DNA from: a virus
Virus record (IMG/VR): IMGVR_UViG_3300045141_000143
Span: 1-64,000 of that record
Strand: one strand, 5' to 3'
DNA length: 64,000 nt
A program made the position numbers and the translations under genes. Below, in pieces: positions 1-10,781 of the stretch (position 1 is its first letter; each line of letters opens with the position of its first letter). The notes under the pieces were generated by a model. The model was not told the origin of the DNA. It saw nothing but the letters and a program-made list of their open reading frames with translations, and made no database searches.

Positions 1-120
1 GCAGACCATCGGCTCGGAGCGGCTGCCAGGGCAGACCGGCATCGGCTGCCAGGGGGTGGCCAGGGCAGGGCAGACCGGCATCGGCTCGGAGCGGCTGCCA
101 GGGCAGACCGGCATCGGCTG
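1..120. repeat. Four copies of a ~30-bp direct repeat at the left edge
   Basis: The heptamer GCAGACC recurs at 1, 31, 70 and 103, each time followed by a variant of GGCATCGGCT and, in two copies, CGGAGCGGCTGCCAGG. The spacing is irregular (30, 39 and 33 bp), so this is a degenerate direct-repeat cluster. It adjoins the 27-bp array at 122. The frame running through it (56-295) encodes only low-complexity repeats and looks spurious. An origin or a repeat-driven recombination site is possible but not shown. Confidence 0.75.
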
Positions 121-121
121 G

Positions 122-202
122 CCACCCCTCAAGCGGTTATTCGGAATCCCACCCCTCAAGCGGCTATCAGGATTGCCACCCCTCAAGCGGCTATCTGATT
201 CT
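122..202. repeat. 27-bp tandem repeat, three copies
   Basis: CCACCCCTCAAGCGG starts at 122, 149 and 176, giving an exact 27-bp period. Each unit continues into CTATC or TTATT and a short variable part. The same unit, with ACGCGG in place of AAGCGG, recurs twice at 1040 and 1067, again 27 bp apart, and fragments occur at 470-530 and 755-765. Together these form a dispersed iteron-like family within the first 1.1 kb. Bases 203-307 hold no gene I can support. Confidence 0.8.
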
Positions 203-307
203 GAAACAATTGCCACACTTGGCAGATTGCCGGAATCGGTTCACTGTGCATGGTGCAAGCAATTGCCTACCGGCTATCCTGCCGGTTGTGGATAGGACAA
301 CCCTAGA

Positions 308-970
308 TTGAGCAAACCTAACATTGCCCTATTGTCTCAGAAACTGAGACAAGGGGGCGGGAATCCTGGCAGTGGTCTGCCAGCGAATCCCATACCTATG
401 ACCAGTGGGCAGAAAGCGGCTGCTACCAAAGCAGCAAACAAGCTTGCGGCATCGGGGGGGGTGGCCACCCCTGCCACCCCTGCCACCCCACAAGCGGCTA
501 TTCCCACCCCGGCCACCCCTACAGCCTTGGATCTGACTCTTGTGGTCACAGAGTCGGAATCGGGGCTGGCAGTGACTCTTGAGTGTGCCACCCCTGCGGC
601 GGAATTGCCGGAAGGCTGGAGTCCAAACCTAGCTTGGACTCTGCGGTCTGCTATCGGCTCGGAGGGGTGGGCAGGACATGAGTCGGTCACAGTCACCTTG
701 CAGGATGCCACTGCGGCCGAATTGCTAGCGGCTGCACACTCAATTCCCTATCTGCAAGCGGCTATTGAGGCGGACAGGGAGTCATCTGAGGATGACAGCC
801 TAGCTAGGACAGTATCGGCAATCTGTGCCCACTATCTGGTCAGTCGAATCCGGCTAGTGCAGCCGGATGGTACTGGGAGTCGGGAAGTGGCCAGAGGTCA
901 GTCCTATAGGGCACTGACTCAACTGACTGACACCATGCTGGCCAAGGCTTCACTTAAGGAAGTGGCCTAG
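308..970 (+). CDS. Ala/Pro/Thr-rich hypothetical protein of unusual composition
   Basis: 220 residues from a TTG at 308 (first ATG in frame at 398). The N-terminal half is rich in Ala, Pro and Thr and contains a low-complexity stretch of PATPATP type encoded by repeated CCACCCCT words. The C-terminal half is acidic and looks more like a folded domain. I do not recognise a family. Codon use is unlike the neighbours: Arg is AGA, AGG, CGG or CGA and never CGC or CGT, and CTA, ATA and TAT are common. The surrounding non-coding DNA shares this bias, so the whole segment may be recently acquired. Coding status is plausible because the frame is long and ends just before a hairpin at 995. Confidence 0.5.
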   Translation: MSKPNIALLSQKLRQGGGNPGSGLPANPIPMTSGQKAAATKAANKLAASGGVATPATPATPQAAIPTPATPTALDLTLVVTESESGLAVTLECATPAAELPEGWSPNLAWTLRSAIGSEGWAGHESVTVTLQDATAAELLAAAHSIPYLQAAIEADRESSEDDSLARTVSAICAHYLVSRIRLVQPDGTGSREVARGQSYRALTQLTDTMLAKASLKEVA

Positions 971-975
971 TCACG

Positions 976-1018
976 CACGAACGAACGAACGAACGCCGGC
1001 CAGAGCGATCTGGCCGGC
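976..1018 (+). terminator. Tetranucleotide repeat followed by a perfect hairpin
   Basis: Five tandem ACGA/GAAC units (about 976-994) are followed by the 9-bp stem GCCGGCCAG (995-1003), loop AGCGAT, and CTGGCCGGC (1010-1018), then TTTCGCTT. Position right after the stop codon at 970 suggests a transcript-end or stability hairpin, but the T-run is weak. Confidence 0.55.
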
Positions 1019-1039
1019 TTTCGCTTGTACTCCCCACAC

Positions 1040-1079
1040 GCGGCTATCAGGAACCACCCCCTACACGCGGTTATCAGGA
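1040..1079. repeat. Second array of the 27-bp repeat family
   Basis: GCGGCTATCAGGA at 1040-1052 and GCGGTTATCAGGA at 1067-1079 are 27 bp apart, each in an ACACG context with CACCCCCT between. The last four bases of the second copy begin the strong AGGAGG ribosome binding site of the gene at 1091. A 13-bp identical copy lies at 13725-13737 inside a coding region. Confidence 0.7.
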
Positions 1080-1090
1080 GGCACGCAACC

Positions 1091-1381
1091 ATGCGGGTCA
1101 CGCTTGAACGAAACCTGACGCTTCGGCGTCTGGACGGCTTTCCATTGCACGCCGAGTTGGTGCGGATCGTCTTCGTGAAAGACGATCAAGTCTACGACGT
1201 TGGCCAAGGCCCACTGCCTTGGGCCATTCGCTGGTTCAACATCCAACGCAAGTTCGCGTCGGAAGACGGGTGCCAGTTCGCATCCGTTGAGGATCACACG
1301 AACCTTGCAAAGCCTAACGATTGGTTCTGTCGAAACCCGGCGCAGAAGGCGGCGTGGGTGAAGGCCAACAAGCAACTCTGA
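1091..1381 (+). CDS. Small hypothetical protein
   Basis: 96 residues. The start is fixed by AGGAGG about 10 bases upstream of the ATG at 1091. The sequence is mixed alpha/beta in character with a conserved-looking centre (PWAIRWFNIQRKF) and a C-terminal KAAWVKANKQL. No family recognised. It is the first of the accessory genes with normal GC-rich codon use after the odd left segment, and is followed by two hairpins at 1392-1434. Confidence 0.7.
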   Translation: MRVTLERNLTLRRLDGFPLHAELVRIVFVKDDQVYDVGQGPLPWAIRWFNIQRKFASEDGCQFASVEDHTNLAKPNDWFCRNPAQKAAWVKANKQL

Positions 1382-1391
1382 CGAGGAGGCT

Positions 1392-1434
1392 AGCCAGCGT
1401 TTCGACGCTGGCTTTCCTCTGCGCCAGGCGCAGA
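1392..1434 (+). other. Two adjacent hairpins between small genes
   Basis: AGCCAGCG (1392-1399), loop TTTCGA, CGCTGGCT (1406-1413) is a perfect 8-bp stem. Directly after it TCTGCGCC, A, GGCGCAGA (1418-1434) is a perfect palindrome. Two smaller GGC/GCC hairpins follow before the gene at 1497. This tandem-hairpin design recurs between other genes of the left operon. Confidence 0.6.
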
Positions 1435-1496
1435 GTCGGCGGCAATAGTGCCGTCGTGATCGGTGGCAATCCCGCCGCCGTTTACCGGAGACAACC

Positions 1497-1763
1497 ATGT
1501 CTACAACTACGAAGGCACGTCCAAAGGACGTGACCGCAAGACGTCCTGTGTATTGGATGAGCGATGTCCCTGACCAGTGTCAGGTCACACGTAGAGCCAT
1601 CGACGGAGAGTTCGTTGACGGCGTGGTTCCAAGCTTCTCTGGGACCATGTGGGCGTGCTGGCACCCGCAAGAGTTCACGAAGCGGGGCGGCAAGTACGGG
1701 ACCGGCAGCGGGCAGCTCTTCACGCTGCAAGCGGACGGTCGCTGGCTCAAGACGCGCGGCTGA
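1497..1763 (+). CDS. Small hypothetical protein
   Basis: 88 residues, ATG preceded by CCGGAGACAACC. Basic N-terminus (residues 1-16), then an aromatic-rich region ending in GSGQLFTLQADGRWLKTRG. The pattern WHPQEF..RGGKYGTGSGQLF looks like a small beta-rich fold. No family recognised. The stop codon is 1 base ahead of the next GTG start at 1765, so the two are probably co-translated. Confidence 0.65.
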   Translation: MSTTTKARPKDVTARRPVYWMSDVPDQCQVTRRAIDGEFVDGVVPSFSGTMWACWHPQEFTKRGGKYGTGSGQLFTLQADGRWLKTRG

Positions 1764-1764
1764 C

Positions 1765-1983
1765 GTGGCCACGTCCTGGGCGCCGGAGGTCATCGCTGAT
1801 GACACTGGCAAGTGGTCGCGGAACGGCTTGCGTTTCGCCACCAAAGAGGAGGCCGACGCCAACGTGCGTGATCTCTACTCGCGTTGGACAGCGGTGCGTG
1901 AATATCGCTCGGTCGAAACGGACGATCCGGTCAACTCGAAATGGATCAGGACCGAGTCACGCCTCGCAGACGCGGCTGAGTGA
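1765..1983 (+). CDS. Conserved small phage/plasmid protein
   Basis: 72 residues from GTG at 1765. The sequence FATKEEADANVRDLYSRW, then VREYRSVETDDPVN, matches a short conserved family I know from alphaproteobacterial phages and plasmids (pattern: nglrFaT-eEA, dL-RW, RV-e-dDPVN); no function is known for it. It overlaps a longer upstream frame (from 1564) that is the shadow of the preceding gene. Followed by an 8-bp hairpin and a GCATTTGGAGA leader. Confidence 0.65.
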   Translation: MATSWAPEVIADDTGKWSRNGLRFATKEEADANVRDLYSRWTAVREYRSVETDDPVNSKWIRTESRLADAAE

Positions 1984-1991
1984 CGCAACTA

Positions 1992-2032
1992 GGCCAGCCT
2001 CGAAAGGGGCTGGCCGCATTTGGAGACGACCA
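1992..2032 (+). other. Hairpin plus GCATTTGGAGA leader
   Basis: GGCCAGCC (1992-1999), loop TCGAAAGG, GGCTGGCC (2008-2015), followed by GCATTTGGAGACGACCA and the ATG at 2033. Nearly the same hairpin-plus-leader combination precedes the genes at 8365 and 9140. Confidence 0.6.
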
Positions 2033-2239
2033 ATGGATGACGACGAAGAGACCTACGATCGGCGGATCATGTTCGCTGATCCAGGCGGCAAGTCAGCGTT
2101 GCGCGCTGCCAGCAAGCGCAATCCGCGCAACCTGCCGTGTCCAACCTGCGGCCAGCCAGATCGGCTGACGCCAGCAGATCGGGCGCAGGGCTATCAGTGC
2201 GACGAGTGCGCAGATCGCGATGAGATGGGAGGGTATTGA
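2033..2239 (+). CDS. Small zinc-ribbon protein
   Basis: 68 residues, start at 2033 supported by TTGGAGA. An acidic N-terminus (MDDDEE) leads to a C-terminal zinc ribbon: CPTCGQPDR followed 18 residues later by CDECADRDEMGGY, i.e. two CxxC pairs. Small treble-clef or ribbon proteins of this type are frequent in alphaproteobacterial phages; target unknown. The stop overlaps the next start by one base (TGATG), so translation is coupled. Confidence 0.7.
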   Translation: MDDDEETYDRRIMFADPGGKSALRAASKRNPRNLPCPTCGQPDRLTPADRAQGYQCDECADRDEMGGY

Positions 2240-2814
2240 TGGAACGTTACATGGTGACCGTGCGGCACATCGACTGCTTCACCGTTGAGGTCGAGGCCGC
2301 AGATAAGGACGCAGCGGCCGACGCTGCGGAGCAACAGATCGAACTCAACCCGCGGGACGCGGACTGGAGTGAGGTCGATGTTGAGCCTGAACTCGCAGAC
2401 GACATGAGGCTGAAGGTTATCGGCTTCGACGAGAACGGGCCTCACGATATGGGCAACCTCGATGTCGGGGAGCTGCACAACGTCATCGCTGAGGCGGTCG
2501 AGGAGCCGCAGCAACTCGAAGCAGCCTACAGGATGATCCGAGACATCCAGGACGCACTCGGCACTGCGGAGAAAGGCGAGGGCCTCGTGGAGATTGCACG
2601 CAATGCCCATCGTGCCGAGGTGGCCTTTAACTCGCAGTTGCAGTTTCCGGCGCCTGGTGCCGAAAACGCCTACGCTTTCGAGCCACACTGGTTTCGCAAG
2701 CTGCGCGAAGTCGAAGACGGCTTGCACGGCAAAGGGCGGGTACTGACCGGCGATCAGCGGCGTGACCTGGCCAACCTGATGACGCTGATACTGTCAAACG
2801 CGGTTCAGATCTGA
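2239..2814 (+). CDS. Acidic hypothetical protein
   Basis: 191 residues. ATG at 2239 with GGGAGGG upstream, overlapping the previous stop. Residues 1-60 form a likely small alpha/beta domain (MVTVRHIDCFTVEVEAADKD, then an acidic helix) of the kind seen in DpnD/PcfM-like proteins. The middle is Glu-rich, and the C-terminal third is helical (HWFRKLREVEDGLHGKG). No function assigned. The gene is directly followed by copy 1 of the two-hairpin intergenic element. Confidence 0.65.
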   Translation: MERYMVTVRHIDCFTVEVEAADKDAAADAAEQQIELNPRDADWSEVDVEPELADDMRLKVIGFDENGPHDMGNLDVGELHNVIAEAVEEPQQLEAAYRMIRDIQDALGTAEKGEGLVEIARNAHRAEVAFNSQLQFPAPGAENAYAFEPHWFRKLREVEDGLHGKGRVLTGDQRRDLANLMTLILSNAVQI

Positions 2815-2899
2815 CGTTGAGGATGGGGATGCAGCGTGGTGCACGCTGCATCTCTATGCACAACGCAAGTGCAGAACGGCAGGCGATCATGCCAGCCGT
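2812..2899 (+). ncRNA. Two-hairpin intergenic element, copy 1
   Basis: Stem I: GATGCAGCGT (2828-2837), 5-base loop, ACGCTGCATC (2843-2852), perfect 10 bp. Stem II: ACGGC-A-GGC (2876-2883), loop GATCAT, GCC-A-GCCGT (2891-2899). The flanks CTGACGTTGAGGATGGG and CTCTATGCACAACG are shared with the copy at 5740. Base changes between copies are compensated, which points to selection on structure. It is probably part of the mRNA rather than a free RNA. Confidence 0.6.
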
Positions 2900-2917
2900 A
2901 AACCACGGGATGATCCG

Positions 2918-3115
2918 ATGTATAACATCACCCATGCGGTCAAGGGCACGAAGCTCGTGATCGAAGTCGACCTGTCGCCAAAGACGTTGGCGGCAGCAAC
3001 GCCCTCCAGGAGCGGTGCGACAATGCTCGTTGCATCCACTGGCGGTTTCCAGGCTGCAACAGTGGTCGCCAACAAGGCGGTCAAGTTCGCGGTCAACGTG
3101 ACGGTGGCACGATGA
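2918..3115 (+). CDS. Conserved small phage protein
   Basis: 65 residues starting MYNITHAVKGTKLVIEVDLS and ending in a beta-rich VKFAVNVTVAR. The order KGTKLVIEVDL, then SRSGATMLVASTGGF, matches a widespread small phage family of unknown function (pattern: kG-kLvIevDl, sksGkT-lvASt-G). Start supported by position just after the stem-loop element; stop overlaps the next ATG. Confidence 0.7.
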   Translation: MYNITHAVKGTKLVIEVDLSPKTLAAATPSRSGATMLVASTGGFQAATVVANKAVKFAVNVTVAR

Positions 3116-3522
3116 CACATAAGATCGTCATCACCGATCCGGTGCGGCTACGTGCTGCCATCGAGTTCGCCAATGACATGGGCTGCCTCGAACAGTTCGG
3201 CGCTGACCTGTGTCGGCTACTGCAAGTGCTGACGTCCGACATGATCCGCTACCCCGAGAGGGGTGGCGAGATCACCTGCAACGAGGAGCGCCGTTTCAAC
3301 GCTGAGATCGTCCCTGATTGGGCACCACACTCATTCGGGTTCGCAATATGGGACACGACGAAGAGCAACGAGAAGAGCCGCGCTAACCTCGTCCTGAACG
3401 GCGGCTGGATCTACTCCGGTCCCGGCGTGCCGAGCGATGGCAGCTTTCCTTCGCTGTGCGTCAGCCTCGATGACATCAGCGGTCGGTCGCGGCCAACGCA
3501 CACTTGGCGGTGCCACACATGA
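3112..3522 (+). CDS. Conserved phage protein with NGG motif, DUF4120-like
   Basis: 136 residues. The C-terminal half contains HSFGFAIWDTTKSNEKSRANLVLNGGWIYSG in sequence order (split here: HSFGFAIW, then NLVLNGGWIYSGPG). A FGFxxWD followed by a lNGGxIY motif is characteristic of a phage family close to DUF4120; function unknown. Start overlaps the previous stop and its own stop overlaps the next start, so it belongs to a translationally coupled trio (2918-3836). Confidence 0.55.
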   Translation: MTHKIVITDPVRLRAAIEFANDMGCLEQFGADLCRLLQVLTSDMIRYPERGGEITCNEERRFNAEIVPDWAPHSFGFAIWDTTKSNEKSRANLVLNGGWIYSGPGVPSDGSFPSLCVSLDDISGRSRPTHTWRCHT

Positions 3523-3836
3523 TTGAGCGCCAGACTTACAAGGTTGGCGTCAATCGTCAGAGGCGGCGGATCTGGATCGATGGTCCCCGTCTCACTCGTG
3601 CGGGTTTCACGCCGGGTGTCCACTACTGGTCGCCGGTCTCGCTGGGTCGCATGACGCTGACACTCAGCGAGGTCGAAGGCCACACGGCACGAAGGGTATC
3701 AGGCAGGCCGGACGGAAAGCCGATTGTCGATATATCAGGCCGGGACGTGCACGCTGCATTCCCAACCTGTGCGGCGGTCGACGTTGAATTCCGGCCTGGT
3801 GTGATCTCAATCGTGCCCTCTACTCGAAACGCCTAG
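3519..3836 (+). CDS. Hypothetical protein with RRRIWIDGPRL motif
   Basis: 105 residues from ATG 3519, overlapping the preceding stop by 4 bases. N-terminal region reads YKVGVNRQRRRIWIDGPRL, then AGFTPGVHYW, followed by RRVSGRPDGKPIVDISG. This layout (basic IDG-rL-raGF, then vSgR..p-iDis) is seen as a stand-alone protein and as an N-terminal extension of some phage cytosine methyltransferases, and loosely resembles SymE/AbrB-type beta barrels. A nucleic-acid role is only a guess. Followed by copy 2 of the two-hairpin element. Confidence 0.5.
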   Translation: MIERQTYKVGVNRQRRRIWIDGPRLTRAGFTPGVHYWSPVSLGRMTLTLSEVEGHTARRVSGRPDGKPIVDISGRDVHAAFPTCAAVDVEFRPGVISIVPSTRNA

Positions 3837-3910
3837 CATGGGGATGCAGCGGCCACGGTCGCTGCATCTCTATGCGTCACGGCGCAGAACGTCAGCAATC
3901 ATGCTGACGT
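3836..3910 (+). ncRNA. Two-hairpin intergenic element, copy 2
   Basis: Stem I: GATGCAGCG (3843-3851), 8-base loop, CGCTGCATC (3860-3868). Stem II: ACGTCAGC (3889-3896), loop AATCAT, GCTGACGT (3903-3910), perfect 8 bp. The shared CTCTATGC and GCAGAACG lie between the stems. Stem II differs from copy 1 by compensated changes (ACGGC/GCCGT against ACGTC/GACGT). Confidence 0.6.
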
Positions 3911-3926
3911 AGCCTAGGACAATCGA

Positions 3927-4241
3927 ATGTCTACTGTGATTGAAGGGTGGCTCGCGAAAGCGCGGCCACATCGCTCTATGAGGTTGTCGCCTCATGAGCG
4001 GATCGTGCTGATCGCAACCAAGCGGTTCAAGCCCAGCTACGCTGGCAGTGACCGCTACCAGATGGTGCGCGCCGAGGCTGTTGAAGGTCGCCGGTGGATC
4101 ACTGACCACATACCGGGCGAGCGGTTCATCACTCGCGCGGAGTGGGCAATCGCCCGAACTGCCCTGGTCGAGAAGGGGCTGCTGACGCTGATCGGCGGCA
4201 TCACGATGGCCGGTCGCGAAGCACTGGGAGACGAGACATGA
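3927..4241 (+). CDS. Small hypothetical protein, possible winged helix
   Basis: 104 residues, ATG 3927. The arrangement LSPHERIVLIATKRF, then FITRAEWAIARTALVEKGLL, then LIGGITMAGREAL resembles a winged-helix domain, with the last part as recognition helix and wing; this is an inference from pattern only. Gene lies just after intergenic element copy 2 and its stop overlaps the start of the DUF6876 gene. Confidence 0.5.
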   Translation: MSTVIEGWLAKARPHRSMRLSPHERIVLIATKRFKPSYAGSDRYQMVRAEAVEGRRWITDHIPGERFITRAEWAIARTALVEKGLLTLIGGITMAGREALGDET

Positions 4242-4621
4242 ACTCGCAATCGTTGGAGGCCGGACTGGCACAGTTCACCGGCACCGAAAACTACACGAGG
4301 CACGGTCTGATGCGCGATCTGCTGATGACCGACGGCGTTGTGTTCCTGGCCAACGAGGCCGGGGCACACTGGCTGACGGACATCGTGGGCTCGCACCTGA
4401 TGACGAACAAGACGCTGCGGGGCGAGGAGTTCCAGTGCTGGACGCTGGTGAAGACGGGCACCGCAGCCCGCGTGTTCGCCACGGACGGCAACGAGACGGA
4501 ACTGGTCTCGCAAGACATCGAGTTCACCGACTTCCCACTCGACGAGGTCAAGCTGTTTTGCAGCAAGGCCGCGGAGTTCGGGCCGAAGTCGTGGGTTCTC
4601 ATGCTCACGTCGGAGTACTGA
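4238..4621 (+). CDS. DUF6876 family protein
   Basis: 127 residues, ATG 4238 overlapping the previous stop. The sequence FTGTENYTRHGLMRDLLMTDG, with TDGVVFLANEAGAHWLTDIV, then FQCWTLV and a late FTDFPLDEVKLFC, is the signature order of DUF6876, a family common in phages and plasmids and of unknown function. Length is as expected for the family. It sits in a run of unrelated small accessory genes. Confidence 0.75.
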   Translation: MNSQSLEAGLAQFTGTENYTRHGLMRDLLMTDGVVFLANEAGAHWLTDIVGSHLMTNKTLRGEEFQCWTLVKTGTAARVFATDGNETELVSQDIEFTDFPLDEVKLFCSKAAEFGPKSWVLMLTSEY

Positions 4622-4623
4622 CG

Positions 4624-5058
4624 ATGGGATGGTTAGTGTTGAACGGCCCGATACCCTACGGCTACACGCGAGATGAGTATCTCCGCAGGGAAATCGAGGA
4701 TCTGTCGTCCCAGGCTCGTGCCAGGGGCTGCAAGAACGAGGTGATAGCTTCGGCTTTCGTTGGCAGCGTCTGGTATGCCGCAGTGCATGTCATCAGGCCA
4801 TCGGACACCGGGCACTCGATCGATTGCACCACTGCCCTGGTCTATCTGACGCAAGGCACCGCGAAGGCCGGCTTCGGATACAAGGACATGGACGAGACGA
4901 TGGGGCCGGTAGAGGCTCAGTGCCCCGTCAAGATCCTCGACATGCTGTCGCCGGTCCACAACCTGGGCGCTGGCGAACAGGGGGCAAAATGGGCAAGCGA
5001 ATGGCGGGCACGGTGCCGCGTCTACGCAAGCCTGCCACGAGGAAGGAGGGCGTCATGA
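4624..5058 (+). CDS. DUF6927-like hypothetical protein
   Basis: 144 residues starting MGWLVLNGPIPYGYTRDEYL. Central YAAVHVIRP, then TALVYLTQG and GFGYKDMDETMGP followed by CPVKILDML; the C-terminus is ASEWRARCR. The MGWL start plus the YKDMDEtmGP and CP-iL signature matches a phage and plasmid family that I associate with DUF6927; function unknown. Overlaps the next gene by 4 bases. Confidence 0.6.
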   Translation: MGWLVLNGPIPYGYTRDEYLRREIEDLSSQARARGCKNEVIASAFVGSVWYAAVHVIRPSDTGHSIDCTTALVYLTQGTAKAGFGYKDMDETMGPVEAQCPVKILDMLSPVHNLGAGEQGAKWASEWRARCRVYASLPRGRRAS

Positions 5059-5243
5059 CGGTCTCGGACGTCTTCCACAACACCGACTGGAAGCTGCTGT
5101 CGAAGCAGAAGCTGCACCTGATCTCCGCGTGCAATCGCTTCGAGGAACTCGAAGGGCTGCTGAACTGGATCGACAGCATACAGGAAGCAGCCGAGGACGC
5201 TGGCTTCCCGGTCGTGTGGCTGACTACGGGAGAGGACAAATGA
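5055..5243 (+). CDS. Small hypothetical protein
   Basis: 62 residues, ATG 5055 preceded by the good site GGAAGGAGGG. Mostly helical, weakly acidic (SACNRFEELEGLLNWIDSIQ). No recognisable family. Both ends overlap neighbours by 4 bases (ATGA), tying it into a coupled cluster from 4624 to 5742. Confidence 0.6.
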   Translation: MTVSDVFHNTDWKLLSKQKLHLISACNRFEELEGLLNWIDSIQEAAEDAGFPVVWLTTGEDK

Positions 5244-5425
5244 ACGAGCGTTGGCAATGCAACTGCGGATCGGGCCTCGACAAGCGAGACCTGAAGGATG
5301 CACGCGGCATCTTCTGCACCTTCGTCTGCGACAAGTGCGAGCAGCGGAAGCGCAGACAATTCCGCGCGGACATCTTCGAGGATGCCTCCTACTGGCACGA
5401 TGAGCCCATCGAGGAGGACGAGTGA
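5240..5425 (+). CDS. Small zinc-binding protein
   Basis: 61 residues. Cysteines at CNCGSGLDKRD and FVCDKCEQRKRRQ form a likely zinc ribbon, followed by an acidic tail (EPIEEDE). Coupled to both neighbours by overlapping start and stop codons. Family not recognised; possibly a nucleic-acid or protein binder. Confidence 0.6.
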   Translation: MNERWQCNCGSGLDKRDLKDARGIFCTFVCDKCEQRKRRQFRADIFEDASYWHDEPIEEDE

Positions 5426-5742
5426 TGGTCGAGGAGTGGAACGTCACCAAGTTCTGCCGGGAGTGCGGCAAGCGGATGATAATCGATGATGACGGCATCG
5501 CGTATCACTTGCGGGAGGCACCGGCTGGCACTGCCGATGAAGTAGACCACGATGCGGATCGGCATCACGTTGCTCTCGATGACACCGAGGGCGAACTGAC
5601 CTGCGACGTTCCGCTCACCGAGTTGGAATGCAGGGTGCTGACGCAACTCGTGTGGAACACAACGAGCGACAAGTTCCCGGAACTGACACGCGATGTAGCC
5701 GTCAAGCTGCTCGACAAGTTCCGGGGCAATTACTTCAGCTGA
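5425..5742 (+). CDS. Acidic hypothetical protein with N-terminal CxxC
   Basis: 105 residues from ATG 5425 (TGATG overlap with the previous gene; a GTG lies one codon upstream). FCRECGKRM near the N-terminus is half of a zinc site, with later His residues (YHLRE, DRHH). The rest is acidic, ending in a helical VKLLDKFRGNYFS. No family recognised. Followed immediately by intergenic element copy 3. Confidence 0.55.
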   Translation: MVEEWNVTKFCRECGKRMIIDDDGIAYHLREAPAGTADEVDHDADRHHVALDDTEGELTCDVPLTELECRVLTQLVWNTTSDKFPELTRDVAVKLLDKFRGNYFS

Positions 5743-5821
5743 CGTTGAGGATGGGGATGCAGTGTGATGCACACTGCATCTCTATGCACAACGTGCAGAA
5801 CGTCAGTGATCCTGCTGGCGT
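5740..5821 (+). ncRNA. Two-hairpin intergenic element, copy 3
   Basis: Stem I: GATGCAGTGT (5756-5765), loop GATGC, ACACTGCATC (5771-5780), perfect 10 bp. Compared with copy 1 a C-G pair is replaced by T-A on both sides. Stem II: ACGTCAG (5800-5806), CTGGCGT (5815-5821), with one G-T pair. Shared flank CTGACGTTGAGGATGGG at 5740. It sits 17 bases ahead of the clamp gene. Confidence 0.6.
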
Positions 5822-5838
5822 AACACCAGGAGCCAATC

Positions 5839-6951
5839 ATGGCTGCTACGAAGAAGAAGGCGGCACGCAAACCCTCGCGTGCTTTGAACGCTGCCAAGCC
5901 ACCGAAGAAGGCGGCGAACGGCGTGGAAAAGGTGAAGCCGGAGCCGAAGGCGCCAGTGTGGGAGACCATGCTGCTGCCGGTGCCGTTGCTGATGGCGGCC
6001 GAGAGCATCGCCGCGAAGGCCGACAAAGAGCGGGTCGGACTACAAGGCGTTATGCTTCACCAGAAGGACGGTGGCGCAGGGCGGATCGTCGGCAGCGACG
6101 GAACGCGGCTGTTCGTCGGTTCCTTCCCGGTGGGGTCGAAGCCTCCGACCTGGCTCAAGACTGGTTTGGTGCTGCCTCGTGAAGACCTGAAGGCCCGCGT
6201 GAACATGATCGCAAAGGTCGCCGGGAGTGAGGTCCAGATCAAGCACGCCAAAGGGGAAGCCTTCGCCTTCCTGAGCGACACCAACGACACCATGCTGTTT
6301 CGAGTGCAGTGCGGCGAGGTGACGGCGTTCCCTCCCTACGAGAACGTCTTCAACATCCAGTCGTTCTCCGACATGACGGAAGAGGGCGACATGGTGGAGA
6401 AGCGCGAATGGGAGCCGGTCGGCTTCAACTCGCGTCACCTGAAGCACGTTGGCGAGGTGGCCAAGATCCTCGAAGCGGGTATGCCGAAAGACAGCCGGGA
6501 AAAGAACGGCATGACGATCCGGGTGTTCGACAACGGGGAGCCGAGTGCGCCTCGCGTATTCGACTTCGTCGGATGGCCTGGTGCTCTGCTTGTGATCGCT
6601 GCGGTGCAGCTGACACAGACGGTGCTGCCGTTGCAGACCGCCAAGCTGCTCGCCCCGGCGGTCAAGCTGACACTGGCTGCGCTGCGGGCTCACGCAACCC
6701 GCTGGCTGGATGCGGCAACGAAGGCTGACGGCGAGGTCGCCAAGGCAGCTTGCTTGGCCAAGGCCCGAGGCTTCCAGGAGCGCGTAGCGGCTATCCTGGC
6801 GGTGACGCCTGATCTGGCTTCACCCGCGATCGGCACCGACGCCAAGCCGGAGCCGGAAGCTGAGGCAGAAGCCGAGCCAGTCCTGACGCGGGCTGAGAAG
6901 GCGGCTGCGACACGCAAGCGCAAGCAGGCTGCTGGCGCGACCGTGCACTAA
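5839..6951 (+). CDS. DnaN-like sliding clamp homologue
   Basis: 370 residues, ATG with CCAGGAGCC upstream. Residues 1-40 are a Lys/Ala-rich basic extension. Residues 41-258 look like sliding-clamp fold: GSDGTRLFVGSFP (85-97, cf. the TDGhRLa of DnaN), FAFLSD (142-147), VTAFPPYENVF (161-171, cf. FPdY), VGFNSRHLKHV (194-204) and the terminal FDFVGWPGALLVIAAVQL (241-258). This would be about two clamp domains rather than the three of bacterial DnaN, with an Ala/Glu-rich, probably disordered C-terminal extension (260-370). A clamp tethers polymerases and repair enzymes to DNA; three proteins of this phage carry QLxLF clamp-binding peptides. Function is inferred from pattern; fold prediction would settle it. 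Confidence 0.6.
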   Translation: MAATKKKAARKPSRALNAAKPPKKAANGVEKVKPEPKAPVWETMLLPVPLLMAAESIAAKADKERVGLQGVMLHQKDGGAGRIVGSDGTRLFVGSFPVGSKPPTWLKTGLVLPREDLKARVNMIAKVAGSEVQIKHAKGEAFAFLSDTNDTMLFRVQCGEVTAFPPYENVFNIQSFSDMTEEGDMVEKREWEPVGFNSRHLKHVGEVAKILEAGMPKDSREKNGMTIRVFDNGEPSAPRVFDFVGWPGALLVIAAVQLTQTVLPLQTAKLLAPAVKLTLAALRAHATRWLDAATKADGEVAKAACLAKARGFQERVAAILAVTPDLASPAIGTDAKPEPEAEAEAEPVLTRAEKAAATRKRKQAAGATVH

Positions 6952-7091
6952 GCGGGGAACAGGGATGCGGCCAGTGGAGGTTGGCCGCATCCCCCGCCGA
7001 CTGGTCTTGCACCAGGTCGGCACGCTGGCTGCGCACCCGCGGTTCGCGGTGGCGTTATAGTGCGTTTCGCACATTCCTAACAGGGGGACAA
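6952..7091 (+). other. Intergenic region with two hairpins
   Basis: GGGATGCGGCCA (6962-6973) pairs with TGGCCGCATCCC (6982-6993), a perfect 12-bp stem. A second stem runs 6996-7021 (GCCGAC-TGGT against ACCA-GGTCGGC, one bulge). The GGATGC/GCATCC outer stem resembles stem I of the three-copy element, so this may be a diverged fourth copy. GTGCGTTTCGCAC at 7060-7072 is a third small hairpin, and CAGGGGGACAA provides the ribosome site for 7092. Confidence 0.55.
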
Positions 7092-7955
7092 ATGACAGTC
7101 ATCGGGACTGGCATAAGTTGGACGAACTCAACGTGGGGCCTCGCAACAGGATGCGACAAAGTGTCCGCCGGTTGTGACCACTGCTACGCTGAGGAGATCG
7201 TGGGTCGCTGGGACTTCGGTCACACCTTCGATCAAGTGAAGCTCCACCTCGAAAGACTACCTCACGTCAGACGGTTCAAGCCGTTGCCTGATGGTCAGGG
7301 CGGCTTCAACCCGCACATGGTCTTCGTCAACAGCATGAGCGACTTCTGGCACGATGCAATCTCCAACGAGGTCATCTATCAGATCCTCGATGTGATGGAG
7401 GCCAACCGGCACGTTGTGTTCCAGATCCTCACGAAGCGGCCGATCAGAGCCCGCAGGCTGCTGACTGGTCGTTACGGCGGCAAGGGCATACCGTCACACA
7501 TCTGGATCGGCGTATCGGCTGAGGATAACCGGGTGGCCAAGCGGCTAGACATCATGCGGACGATTAAGCAGCGCTGTGGTGGCGGGACGTTCTTTGTCAG
7601 CGTAGAGCCCATCGTCGGGCCTACAGATCAGATCGACTTCGCTGACATGGACTGGATCATCACCGGGGGCGAAAGCGGGCCAAAGGCACGGACGATGGAA
7701 CGACCGTGGCTGATGAGTGTGCTGGACACGCAGACTGCGCCGATCTGGCACAAGCAGAGCGGCACTGTGCGAAGCCACCCGAACATCGACAAAGTCCCAA
7801 GCCGCTACCTCAAACCTGCCGATCAGTTCCGCTGGCTCCGCGACAACGGATGGGAGCTGCTGCCGCAAGAGAAAGGCGGCGCCACGGCGGATCGGATGAC
7901 GTGGCGGCATCTGCCGCAAGCCTACTACGACCTGAAACAAGCAATGGCTGCGTGA
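7092..7955 (+). CDS. Phage Gp37/Gp68-like protein (DUF5131)
   Basis: 287 residues. N-terminal ISWTNSTWGLATGCDKVSAG followed by CDHCYAE gives the hallmark C-x6-C-x2-C cluster of DUF5131, a family related to radical-SAM-like three-cysteine proteins. Further family marks: HMVFVNSMSDFWHDAI, FQILTKRP, IWIGVSAED, VSVEPIVGP and WIITGGESGP. Length is normal. Biochemistry is unknown; members are widespread in phages and mobile elements. Start chosen at 7092 because of the site CAGGGGGACAA. The gene is separated from both neighbours and may have its own promoter in the hairpin-rich gap upstream. Confidence 0.85.
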   Translation: MTVIGTGISWTNSTWGLATGCDKVSAGCDHCYAEEIVGRWDFGHTFDQVKLHLERLPHVRRFKPLPDGQGGFNPHMVFVNSMSDFWHDAISNEVIYQILDVMEANRHVVFQILTKRPIRARRLLTGRYGGKGIPSHIWIGVSAEDNRVAKRLDIMRTIKQRCGGGTFFVSVEPIVGPTDQIDFADMDWIITGGESGPKARTMERPWLMSVLDTQTAPIWHKQSGTVRSHPNIDKVPSRYLKPADQFRWLRDNGWELLPQEKGGATADRMTWRHLPQAYYDLKQAMAA

Positions 7956-7967
7956 TTGGAGAAATCA

Positions 7968-8267
7968 ATGAGCGACGAACTATTGGTAGACATCGGCATG
8001 ATGCTGGCGGCGCTACCCCGCCCAATGAACTCGGACGAAGTGAGACGGTTCGCAAACGATCTGGTGAACAAATCCGTGGATCAATCGCCTCTGTCCATCG
8101 CCTCACTGGCTTGGATCGAACTAGAACCGCGAGGAGGCAACCTGGACCAAGCTGAAGCTCTGGCGACAGCCGTCCTCAATGTCGTGGACCCGAAGAGAGG
8201 TCTCTCACTGAGTGCGGCACGAAAGATCATCGGAGCTATCTGGGCTGGCACCACGCTGATGAAGTGA
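7968..8267 (+). CDS. Small hypothetical protein
   Basis: 99 residues, ATG 7968 preceded by TTGGAGAAATCA, the same leader type as genes 8365 and 9140. Predicted largely helical, with leucine- and alanine-rich segments. No motif or family recognised. Lies 12 bases after the DUF5131 gene, so probably co-transcribed with it; a perfect 10-bp hairpin with a GCAA loop follows. Confidence 0.6.
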   Translation: MSDELLVDIGMMLAALPRPMNSDEVRRFANDLVNKSVDQSPLSIASLAWIELEPRGGNLDQAEALATAVLNVVDPKRGLSLSAARKIIGAIWAGTTLMK

Positions 8268-8276
8268 AGCACCGAA

Positions 8277-8364
8277 CAGGAGGCGAGCAATCGCCTCCTG
8301 ATCCGTGCCTCACAGCACGTCGGGCCGGCGATACCCGGCAACTGCGCATTTGGAGAAATGCAAC
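8277..8364 (+). other. GCAA-loop hairpin and GCGCATTTGGAGAA leader
   Basis: CAGGAGGCGA (8277-8286), GCAA (8287-8290), TCGCCTCCTG (8291-8300) is a perfect 10-bp stem closed by a GNRA tetraloop. A second small stem, GCCGG/CCGGC, follows near 8325-8340, then CTGCGCATTTGGAGAAATGCAAC before the ATG at 8365. Confidence 0.65.
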
Positions 8365-9078
8365 ATGGCTACGAAGACGAAGAAGAAGGCTGCGGCCACA
8401 CCGCCGCAGCCGGTCGAGCCTGAGTCGCGGGAAGCGGTGCTGGCTGCGATCGTCAAGCTCTGCGATCGGTTTGATCGCCAGATGCTTGAGACTCGTGGTG
8501 AGACGATGAACCTGGCCTTCGGCCACTACGGCAGGAACACCCCGATGGGCGATCTCCGCGATGAGATGCGGGCGCTGGACATCGTGCTGGACAAGTTCCT
8601 GACCGCCGAGGAGGACGCGCAGGACATCGTGCTCAAGGCGATCTCCATCGAGCCGGGGATCGTTCCAACCTGGTCGCGGGCGGGCACGTTCCTGATCTGG
8701 ATGGGCAAGACGCCCTTCCGGTGCGAGTGGGGCGGCTTTCCCTACCCGTACGCCAGCTTCGCAGCAGCCGACCCACGGATGCCGTTCCCAAGCTCCGATG
8801 GTGTGATGCGATGCACGACGGTCATTGAGCGTATGCAGAGGACGCCGGCCGATGTCTGCCGTTCTGATCTGCTGGTGTCTTCGCAAAGGATCAGCTGGAG
8901 ACGAAACAAGAAGGAACCGACCTTCAGCTTCGTCCCGCTGGACCCTGCTACCCGAGCAGACGTAACGTCCTATCGGGACAGTAACGAATGGCTACGCAAG
9001 GCCATCGCGAAAGGCCCTGTTGAGCCAATCCCGATGCCGGATCATCTGCACGCGATCCCGCTGGCTCTCGCTTTCTAA
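8365..9078 (+). CDS. Hypothetical protein with basic N-terminal tail
   Basis: 237 residues. N-terminus MATKTKKKAAATPPQP is basic and disordered, similar in style to the clamp-like protein at 5839. Residues 30-110 are helical (LDIVLDKFLTAEEDAQDIVL). A compact aromatic region follows (FLIWMGKTPFRCEWGGFPYPY). No recognised family. It shares the GCGCATTTGGAGAA leader with 9140, suggesting common regulation or duplication of the 5' region. Confidence 0.55.
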   Translation: MATKTKKKAAATPPQPVEPESREAVLAAIVKLCDRFDRQMLETRGETMNLAFGHYGRNTPMGDLRDEMRALDIVLDKFLTAEEDAQDIVLKAISIEPGIVPTWSRAGTFLIWMGKTPFRCEWGGFPYPYASFAAADPRMPFPSSDGVMRCTTVIERMQRTPADVCRSDLLVSSQRISWRRNKKEPTFSFVPLDPATRADVTSYRDSNEWLRKAIAKGPVEPIPMPDHLHAIPLALAF

Positions 9079-9087
9079 ACCGCCTGC

Positions 9088-9139
9088 CGTTGTGGCCGGG
9101 ACGTTCCCGGTCACAACGCTGCGCATTGGAGAACTACAA
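9088..9139 (+). other. Long hairpin and GCGCATTGGAGAA leader
   Basis: CGTTGTGGCCGGG (9088-9100) pairs with CCCGGTCACAACG (9106-9118) with one G-T pair, loop ACGTT. CTGCGCATTGGAGAACTACAA follows, nearly identical to the leader at 8341-8364. Confidence 0.65.
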
Positions 9140-9589
9140 ATGAGCGAGGATCTCATCACCATCGGCAACGATGGTCAGACGATCACCAACACGGACTACT
9201 GGCAGCACCCATACGCCGCAAAAGGCTTGTTCTTCCTATCGACCAACGCCGGATGCCTGCGTCTGCTTGTGCCCCAGCCGCATGTCCACCTGATACCGGA
9301 GATGACCAACAACGTCCGCGAGGTCGTGCTGACCAGGGGGAAGATGGAGGGCAAAGACGACGTGGTCGAGATCATGTTCGAGGACGGAAGTGACGCGCCG
9401 TTCAGCCTGCATCTCGATCCCGGCCAGCTTGATCGGCGATGGACCAAGCAGGACGAAGGGTCGCAGTGCGTCTTTGCGGTCTACACAGAGGGACCAGCCA
9501 AGGTCGCTGAGTTCACGCGCTGCTTCCTCCGACGGGCGTCGCGCCTGCCGCACATGAAGCCCTGGAAGGGGAGTGAGCGCCATGAGTGA
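9140..9589 (+). CDS. Conserved phage hypothetical protein
   Basis: 149 residues. Central NAGCLRLLVPQPHV, then VVLTRGKMEG, then VEIMFEDGSDAPFSLHLD; this strand-rich pattern (NaG-lRLlvP, GkdaiEimFED-sd-Pf-lHl) recurs in alphaproteobacterial phage proteins without known function. Overlaps the next gene by 8 bases. Start supported by TTGGAGAA. Confidence 0.6.
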   Translation: MSEDLITIGNDGQTITNTDYWQHPYAAKGLFFLSTNAGCLRLLVPQPHVHLIPEMTNNVREVVLTRGKMEGKDDVVEIMFEDGSDAPFSLHLDPGQLDRRWTKQDEGSQCVFAVYTEGPAKVAEFTRCFLRRASRLPHMKPWKGSERHE

Positions 9590-9830
9590 CGATGCAGAAC
9601 GTGCACGCCTGCGGGCGCTGCCAGTCACACGAACCACCAAGCTGCTCGTCATGAACAGCGGCGTTAGGGAGTGGGTGAGCAACGGACGCTTGTTCACCGT
9701 GATCGGCAAGCCACGCCCGCACCGCATCGATGAGGATGATCCGTCTATCTACGGCCACCAGCTGCTGGGCCACGAAGGCGAGCGTGCCTGGATGGTGACT
9801 GTGGAGATCAGGGGAGATCAGGGAAGGTAG
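9582..9830 (+). CDS. Small hypothetical protein
   Basis: 82 residues, ATG 9582 with GGAAGGGGAG upstream, overlapping 9140-9589. No recognised family. Its 3' end overlaps the end of the leftward gene at 9818 by 13 bases, so the accessory operon and the replication operon meet tail to tail here without an obvious intrinsic terminator. Confidence 0.55.
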   Translation: MSDDAERARLRALPVTRTTKLLVMNSGVREWVSNGRLFTVIGKPRPHRIDEDDPSIYGHQLLGHEGERAWMVTVEIRGDQGR

Positions 9831-10132
9831 TTGACCTCGATGCCGCCAACACGCGCGATGATCTTGCGCGCTGTTGGCGCATCAACGCCGCTGGCGATCA
9901 CGCACACCGGCATCCAAGTTTCATCGACGCCCTCAACGTCGAACCACGGCGCGAAAGGGTCGGTCTTGCCCGCCACATACACCTGCATCTCGTTGTTGCG
10001 CACCAACCGATAGCGGTTCGTCGCTGCCAGGACGACGGGAGCAGGCGGTGTGGGGTTAGGCGACCACGCGACTGCGACCGGCTCCGGCTCCGCGAACAGC
10101 GAGAGCTGAGGTTTAAGCCTCGCCGTCGGCAC
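9818..10132 (-). CDS. Small protein with N-terminal QLSLF clamp-binding motif
   Basis: 104 residues from GTG 10132 (no in-frame ATG ahead of the conserved part). Residues 5-15 read RLKPQLSLFAE; QLSLF is the textbook bacterial beta-clamp binding pentapeptide. The remainder (residues 35-104) is a small alpha/beta domain with YVAGKTDPFAPWFDVEGVDE and ARKIIARVGGIEVNYLP. Family not recognised. It is the last gene of the leftward operon and overlaps the Calx-beta gene by 20 bases. I infer clamp tethering, possibly linked to the phage clamp-like protein. Confidence 0.55.
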   Translation of the reverse strand: MPTARLKPQLSLFAEPEPVAVAWSPNPTPPAPVVLAATNRYRLVRNNEMQVYVAGKTDPFAPWFDVEGVDETWMPVCVIASGVDAPTARKIIARVGGIEVNYLP

Positions 10133-10781
10133 GCGCCTGCCACGCCGCGAGATAGGCTTCCTGGAACGCCTGGATCGACGCGAACCACTGCCCGTTTGGC
10201 TCCAGTATCGAGCCGTCCGGTCCCATGTGACCCCACCACGCATTGCCCGCTGGCGTCTCCAGCAGCAGCGCCGTCGATGTCTCCGGGCTGCCAGCGATGC
10301 GCCACGCCGTGACATACATCTGCTTGATCCAGCAATTGTCATGCGACGGGCCAGCGGTCGCATCGCGCGGCTCGATGGAAACGACCATGTGCTGCGCGGC
10401 CGCGGGCACGTAGTGGGCTGGCTCATTGACGATGATCGACGAGGCACTCGCCACACCAATCGAGCAGTTCACCGGGCTCGACAACTGCACCGAGAACGAC
10501 TCGTCCTGCTCGAAGACCGTGTCGCCAGAGACAGCAACGATGATCTGCGCCGTGGCCTCCCCGACATCGAAGGTGATGACGCCAGACGGCAGCACGCCGC
10601 CAACAAAGTCCTCCGGCTGGGTGTCGCCGGCGAGGACTGCCCACGCAGCACTCGACACACCCGACTGATCCCCTGACCGCGTCACCGTGAAGGTGAACAG
10701 GGTGTCGCCAGTGTCGCCCTCGACTTTCGCCGTCTGGTCCGCCGCTATGTCGATCCGGGGTGTCGGTGCTCTGCCGCTCAT
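10113..10781 (-). CDS. Calx-beta domain protein
   Basis: 222 residues. Residues 10-105 match a Calx-beta repeat: VEGDTGDTLFTFTVTRSGD, then a DFVGGVLPSGVITFDVGE strand pair, then IIVAVSGDTVFEQDESFSVQL. Such domains bind calcium and occur in surface adhesins and phage structural proteins. The C-terminal half (PSHDNCWIKQ, AGNAWWGHMGPDGS) is unassigned. No signal peptide or membrane segment. Unusual in being encoded among replication genes, far from the structural operon and in overlap with both neighbours. Confidence 0.7.
   Translation of the reverse strand: MSGRAPTPRIDIAADQTAKVEGDTGDTLFTFTVTRSGDQSGVSSAAWAVLAGDTQPEDFVGGVLPSGVITFDVGEATAQIIVAVSGDTVFEQDESFSVQLSSPVNCSIGVASASSIIVNEPAHYVPAAAQHMVVSIEPRDATAGPSHDNCWIKQMYVTAWRIAGSPETSTALLLETPAGNAWWGHMGPDGSILEPNGQWFASIQAFQEAYLAAWQARADGEA

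Follow-up and report, generated by a model that had tools for sequence, protein, structure and literature searches.

The sequence analysed here, referred to as the window, comprises bases 1 to 64,000 of the 68,060-base virus record IMGVR_UViG_3300045141_000143. Genes are carried on the plus strand from approximately 300 to 9830 and on the minus strand thereafter, and the minus-strand proteins that could be recognised were portal, major head, protease, tail and fibre proteins; the plus-strand stretch is probably an early operon. Within this stretch, a preliminary description had reported an intergenic element in three gaps, each with two hairpins in a fixed order and with compensated changes between the hairpin arms. 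The gaps, the order and the compensated changes are all present in the sequence, and the window contains a fourth, diverged copy, c0, in the gap 1381–1497, in addition to the three copies noted before (c1, c2 and c3). The view that the element separates gene modules was also borne out, as each copy occupies a gap between gene clusters that otherwise overlap, up to the ribosome-binding site of the next module.

Each copy consists of three consecutive hairpins, and the order GGGGATGCAG...CTCTATGC...GCAGAACG is present in the three originally noted gaps. Stem I spans ATGGGGATGCAG... to ...CTGCATCTCTAT and contains 14–16 pairs, including two conserved G.U pairs, and is interrupted by an internal defect in each copy; the compensated arms CAGCGT/ACGCTG and CAGTGT/ACACTG described previously are part of this longer stem. 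Stem II, with the form GCNN...NNGC (GCAC..GTGC or GCGT..GCGC), abuts stem I without a spacer, is 100% paired across the copies, and covaries at its third and fourth pairs. It is this middle hairpin that had been missed, and the second hairpin of the preliminary description corresponds to stem III. An AGA linker connects stems II and III, and both the linker and the stem II core are invariant. A six-base loop was found on all 12 stem III hairpins, and its start is kept as a purine, A or C, and a pyrimidine; the loops GATCAT and AATCAT reported earlier occur in c1 and c2, but the copy in the gap 5740–5838 has a different loop, GATCCT. Whereas the arms of the stems are free to vary, the core of stem II, the linker and the start of the stem III loop are retained. 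In c0 the stem III hairpin is doubled in tandem, with a six-base loop on each hairpin.

Pattern scans of IMG/VR identified two related phage contigs of approximately 69.6 kilobases, L034 (69,648 bases; the same contig as L145) and L095 (69,580 bases). A covariance model, R1, was based on c2, c3 and a single copy from L034, and it recovered all remaining copies: c1, c0 at 1382 (28.7 bits), three further copies in L034 and three in L095. Covariance-model searching, as proposed in the preliminary description, yielded seven additional copies in the two related contigs, mostly at equivalent gene junctions. A second covariance model, R2, was built from all 11 copies and run on the three whole records. 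It returned exactly these 11 copies at 51.8 bits or more (c0 at 60 bits), scores that are high partly by construction of the model, and nothing else in the three genomes scored more than 19.7 bits. Neither this gap in score to everything else nor the location of the copies just before a start codon is a consequence of how the model was constructed.

Both folding prediction and covariation analysis indicated that the element folds. Copies c1, c2 and c3 fold more stably than dinucleotide-shuffled sequences (z-scores of -5.1, -8.3 and -3.8), and none of 200 shuffles was as stable. In the alignment of the 11 copies, which was fitted to the R1 structure and is therefore biased towards it, 96% of base-pair cells are standard pairs, compared with a shuffled mean of 70.8%. 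Compensated double changes occur in 21 of the 25 pairs against a shuffled mean of 9.9, none of 500 shuffles reached any of the five covariation measures, and pairing fell to 24–44% when the partners were slid by one to three columns, which upholds the earlier proposal of selection on folding. RNAalifold, applied to the R1-fitted alignment without a supplied structure, predicted the same three hairpins, with double changes in 22 of 26 pairs. Parsing the 11 copies by hand gave 95.6% pairing and 19 compensated columns.

The G.U and A.C cells of the hand parse also indicate the strand and the molecule that fold. On the coding strand, 24 cells are G.U and two are A.C (11 columns versus two; sign test, p 0.011), and this excess argues for folding of the coding-strand transcript and not for a DNA cruciform, since G.U pairs form only in the coding-strand RNA and no such bias is expected from a DNA palindrome or from the opposite transcript. 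Hairpin-templated mutation is disfavoured by the same observation, because it would convert G.U into perfect pairs. We conclude that the element is almost certainly a structured RNA. The coordinates of the four copies in the window and of the genes that follow them are listed in Table 1.

Table 1. Copies of the element in the window and the genes downstream of them.
Feature	Position	Strand	Description
c0	1382..1480	+	stem I 1382-1420, stem II 1421-1431, linker AGA, stem III 1437-1456 (loop AATAGT), second stem III 1461-1480 (loop AATCCC)
Module-leading gene after c0	1497..1763	+	88 amino acids, no Pfam match; kept in both related phages
c1	2823..2899	+	stem I 2823-2857, stem II 2858-2872, AGA 2873-2875, stem III 2876-2899 (loop GATCAT)
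Module-leading gene after c1	2918..3115	+	65 amino acids, no Pfam match; kept in both related phages
c2	3838..3910	+	stem I 3838-3873, stem II 3874-3885, AGA 3886-3888, stem III 3889-3910 (loop AATCAT)
First gene after c2	3927..4241	+	104 amino acids; no element precedes its relatives in the other two phages
c3	5751..5821	+	stem I 5751-5785, stem II 5786-5796, AGA 5797-5799, stem III 5800-5821 (loop GATCCT)
Gene after c3	5839..6951	+	370 amino acids; kept, element included, in both related phages

The copies in the window begin 0–8 nucleotides past the upstream stop codon and finish 16–18 nucleotides before the next start codon, and the remaining copies finish 14–25 nucleotides before a start codon; over all copies this distance is mostly 14–18 nucleotides. 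Every non-overlapping module junction in the stretch 1382–5839 carries one copy. Three junctions, those before the genes starting at 1497, 2918 and 5839, are occupied in all three phages. The proteins encoded at these common junctions share 36–78% identity between phages, and gene order is otherwise conserved. The extra copies, c2 in the window and L034b (Lb) in L145, accompany local differences in gene content between the phages. Identity is higher between copies of a single genome (c1–c3, 82%; f–g, 80%; Lc–Ld, 71%) than between counterparts in different genomes (57–70%). Such likeness is expected if the copies share one phage-specific partner but would equally result from gene conversion, and it fits either process or both. 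In L145 at 2014–2390, the reading frame after L034b continues through the element L034c into the next gene, a possible frameshift or sequencing error.

The product of the gene at 5839–6951 is divergent, and no Pfam match was found for it. Nearly all of the fold matches listed for it were DnaN sliding clamps, and its structure model has low confidence (predicted local distance difference test score of 54); we tentatively regard it as a DnaN sliding-clamp-like protein. The name RusA-like, assigned to it by PHROGs, was unsupported by the predicted fold. No relatives of this protein were detected among GTDB genomes.

Consistent with the earlier statement that no named phage RNA has this layout, Rfam 15 gave no match above the gathering score in the window, L034 or L095, and relaxed thresholds gave chance sub-threshold matches only. 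BLAST against sequenced phages returned no credible match, and the one plasmid match (47 nucleotides, E 0.8) lies inside a coding gene. The matched sequences inspected from the IMG/VR pattern scans, beyond L034 and L095, did not contain the element. A GTDB pattern scan gave ten matches, none of which was confirmed, and R1 found no element in the loci from two IMG/VR pattern scans and the GTDB pattern scan; since pattern scans miss diverged copies, absence elsewhere is unproven by these searches. R2 had no match in 297 genomes from the order to which one Chelatococcus genome belongs; any connection of that genome with the phage is conjectural. The element represents an RNA family without an Rfam entry.

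The suggestion in the preliminary description that the element might be an attenuator was not supported. No element was flagged by a consensus scan for terminators, and no stem is followed by a T-run, the AGA linker or the ribosome-binding region being found there instead. Consensus searches identified no promoter within the elements and no match to a sigma-70-type promoter in window positions 1–10500, and a search for transfer RNA and transfer-messenger RNA found none.

We tentatively favour the possibility, which falls somewhat short of probable, that the element is a cis-acting intercistronic leader RNA, bound by a factor, that sets translation and/or processing of the downstream module. 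On transcription of the early operon, each inter-module gap would fold into the long stem I, the abutting short stem II, the invariant AGA and stem III with its six-base loop near the next start codon. A trans-acting factor, most simply a phage or host RNA-binding protein, would recognise the invariant letters that surround stem II as well as the purine-A-pyrimidine-pyrimidine loop of stem III, and its binding would set the translation of the downstream module and/or the protection or cutting of the transcript. Several early modules, the clamp-like gene among them, might in this way be tuned jointly as one post-transcriptional regulon. Recognition by a factor is suggested by the retention of the stem II core, the linker and the loop start amid variable arms, and the location, directly next to the ribosome-binding region of a module, suits control of translation or transcript processing. 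Occupation of the same three junctions, despite the limited identity of the neighbouring proteins, also supports a leader function, as does the absence of promoter and terminator signals from the elements in the consensus scans. A more elaborate form of this proposal, in which the fold at each junction and a dedicated phage RNA-binding protein co-evolving with the loop constitute an undescribed regulon that switches early and replication genes together, seems unlikely at present.

Several results weigh against a leader function. The binding factor was not found in this analysis, the element is restricted to three phages among searchable sequences, which limits the depth of the comparison, and its position before start codons is partly forced, as it fills the sole non-coding space. 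Folding predictions also gave no consistent pattern in which the element masks or frees the ribosome-binding site, and sequestration of that site was rejected on this ground. Pairing of the stem III loop with downstream sequence is a weak lead: at least five bases can pair in four of the 11 copies (permutation p 0.005 for length and 0.03 for energy, both post hoc), but the other seven show no such pairing or a very short one, and the spacing is too short in at least one copy.

The main alternative, which we consider rather unlikely, is that the copies are intercistronic processing or stability sites of the ribonuclease III (RNase III) type, at which stem I, with stem II stacked on it, would be cut so that the operon transcript is split and the new ends are protected by hairpins. 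Such sites lie between the early genes of phage T7, where they resemble the element in being hairpins in early-gene gaps just before the next ribosome-binding site, with several per operon. A stem I of 14–16 pairs is of suitable length, and its internal defect, its direct contact with stem II and the presence of one copy at each non-overlapping junction also suit processing. RNase III, however, requires little fixed sequence, so that the conserved stem II, AGA linker and six-base loop would be left unexplained, and the T7 sites are not known to have a conserved sequence core or a fixed order of three hairpins. An improbable alternative is a put-like function, in which the nascent RNA would bind RNA polymerase and promote read-through of pauses and terminators along the early operon. 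The HK022 put RNAs (putL and putR) are folded stem-loop RNAs of approximately 70 nucleotides that act in cis and need no phage protein (PMC9378689), and the element resembles them in size, in its consecutive hairpins and in being present in more than one copy per genome. Put RNA, in contrast, has two stem-loops, is located near early promoters, downstream of them, and acts on RNA polymerase through the zinc-binding domain of the beta' subunit, whereas the element has three hairpins, recurs at gene starts within a single operon, and has no terminator positioned to be overcome.

It is very improbable that the element is a DNA feature, either the border of a cassette or a site of recombination. 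Its palindromes would then persist through recognition of the DNA or through hairpin-templated mutation, and the RNA fold would be incidental. The extra copies c2 and Lb lie beside genes with differing neighbourhoods, and the copies of one genome appear homogenised, as such a feature might predict. The conserved G.U pairs and the strong excess of G.U over A.C, on the other hand, are unexpected from DNA recognition or templated repair, and gene order is otherwise conserved. Integron attC sites consist of a single hairpin with GTTRRRY and RYYYAAC cores, but the element has three separate hairpins, and by eye these cores were not seen at its ends. Least likely of all is a ligand-sensing riboswitch or self-cleaving ribozyme. 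A leader of several covarying hairpins that precedes ribosome-binding sites and has invariant unpaired letters would suit either, as would the loop pairing seen post hoc in four copies; none of the riboswitch or ribozyme models in Rfam matches, however, several copies precede unrelated small genes, and the loop pairing is not shared by most copies.

The closest described system is that of the start-associated sequences (SAS) with extended inverted repeats (ESAS) in Cluster K mycobacteriophages (PMC3203893). As with the element, several copies per genome are located in a single orientation upstream of the start codons of non-structural genes, and related phages retain them before the same families of genes; the SAS/ESAS consensus shifts between subclusters. 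An ESAS comprises one 17-bp inverted repeat pair, after which comes the 13-bp SAS; those who described it saw little support for pairing in RNA and preferred to interpret the repeats as DNA-binding sites (PMC3203893). The element differs in its three hairpins and its overwhelming RNA covariation, and the 13-bp SAS, GGGATAGGAGCCC, was absent by eye downstream of all 11 copies. None of SAS/ESAS, put RNA and the T7 RNase III sites matches the element on the defining features testable here. Repeated start-associated elements are thus already known in phages, with RNA pairing doubted in the best-described case, and here the RNA fold is backed by covariation in 11 natural copies. These copies constitute a ready set of compensatory variants, with which post-transcriptional coordination of phage early modules is directly testable in small reporters.

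Other features were observed around the early operon. A terminator-like hairpin followed by a short T-run is located at 995–1018, after the reading frame 308–970. A short repeat array with 33- and 27-base units occupies window positions 7–195, at the left end of the early operon; L095 has its own short array of GAGATTTAGT units at approximately 10200–10400, and L145 has another at approximately 410–560. These left-end arrays, one distinct array in each of the three phages, are possibly operator or replication sites. In the gap 6952–7091, before a DUF5131 gene, a TTATAG box occurs together with a strong hairpin that differs from those of the element (GGGATGCGGCCA...TGGCCGCATCCC). A comparable hairpin with TTATAG is present in L145 at 6941–7075, and CTATAG occurs on the minus strand of L095 near 3460. 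The hairpin at 6952–7091 is not matched by the element model and may represent either another kind of junction element or a promoter.
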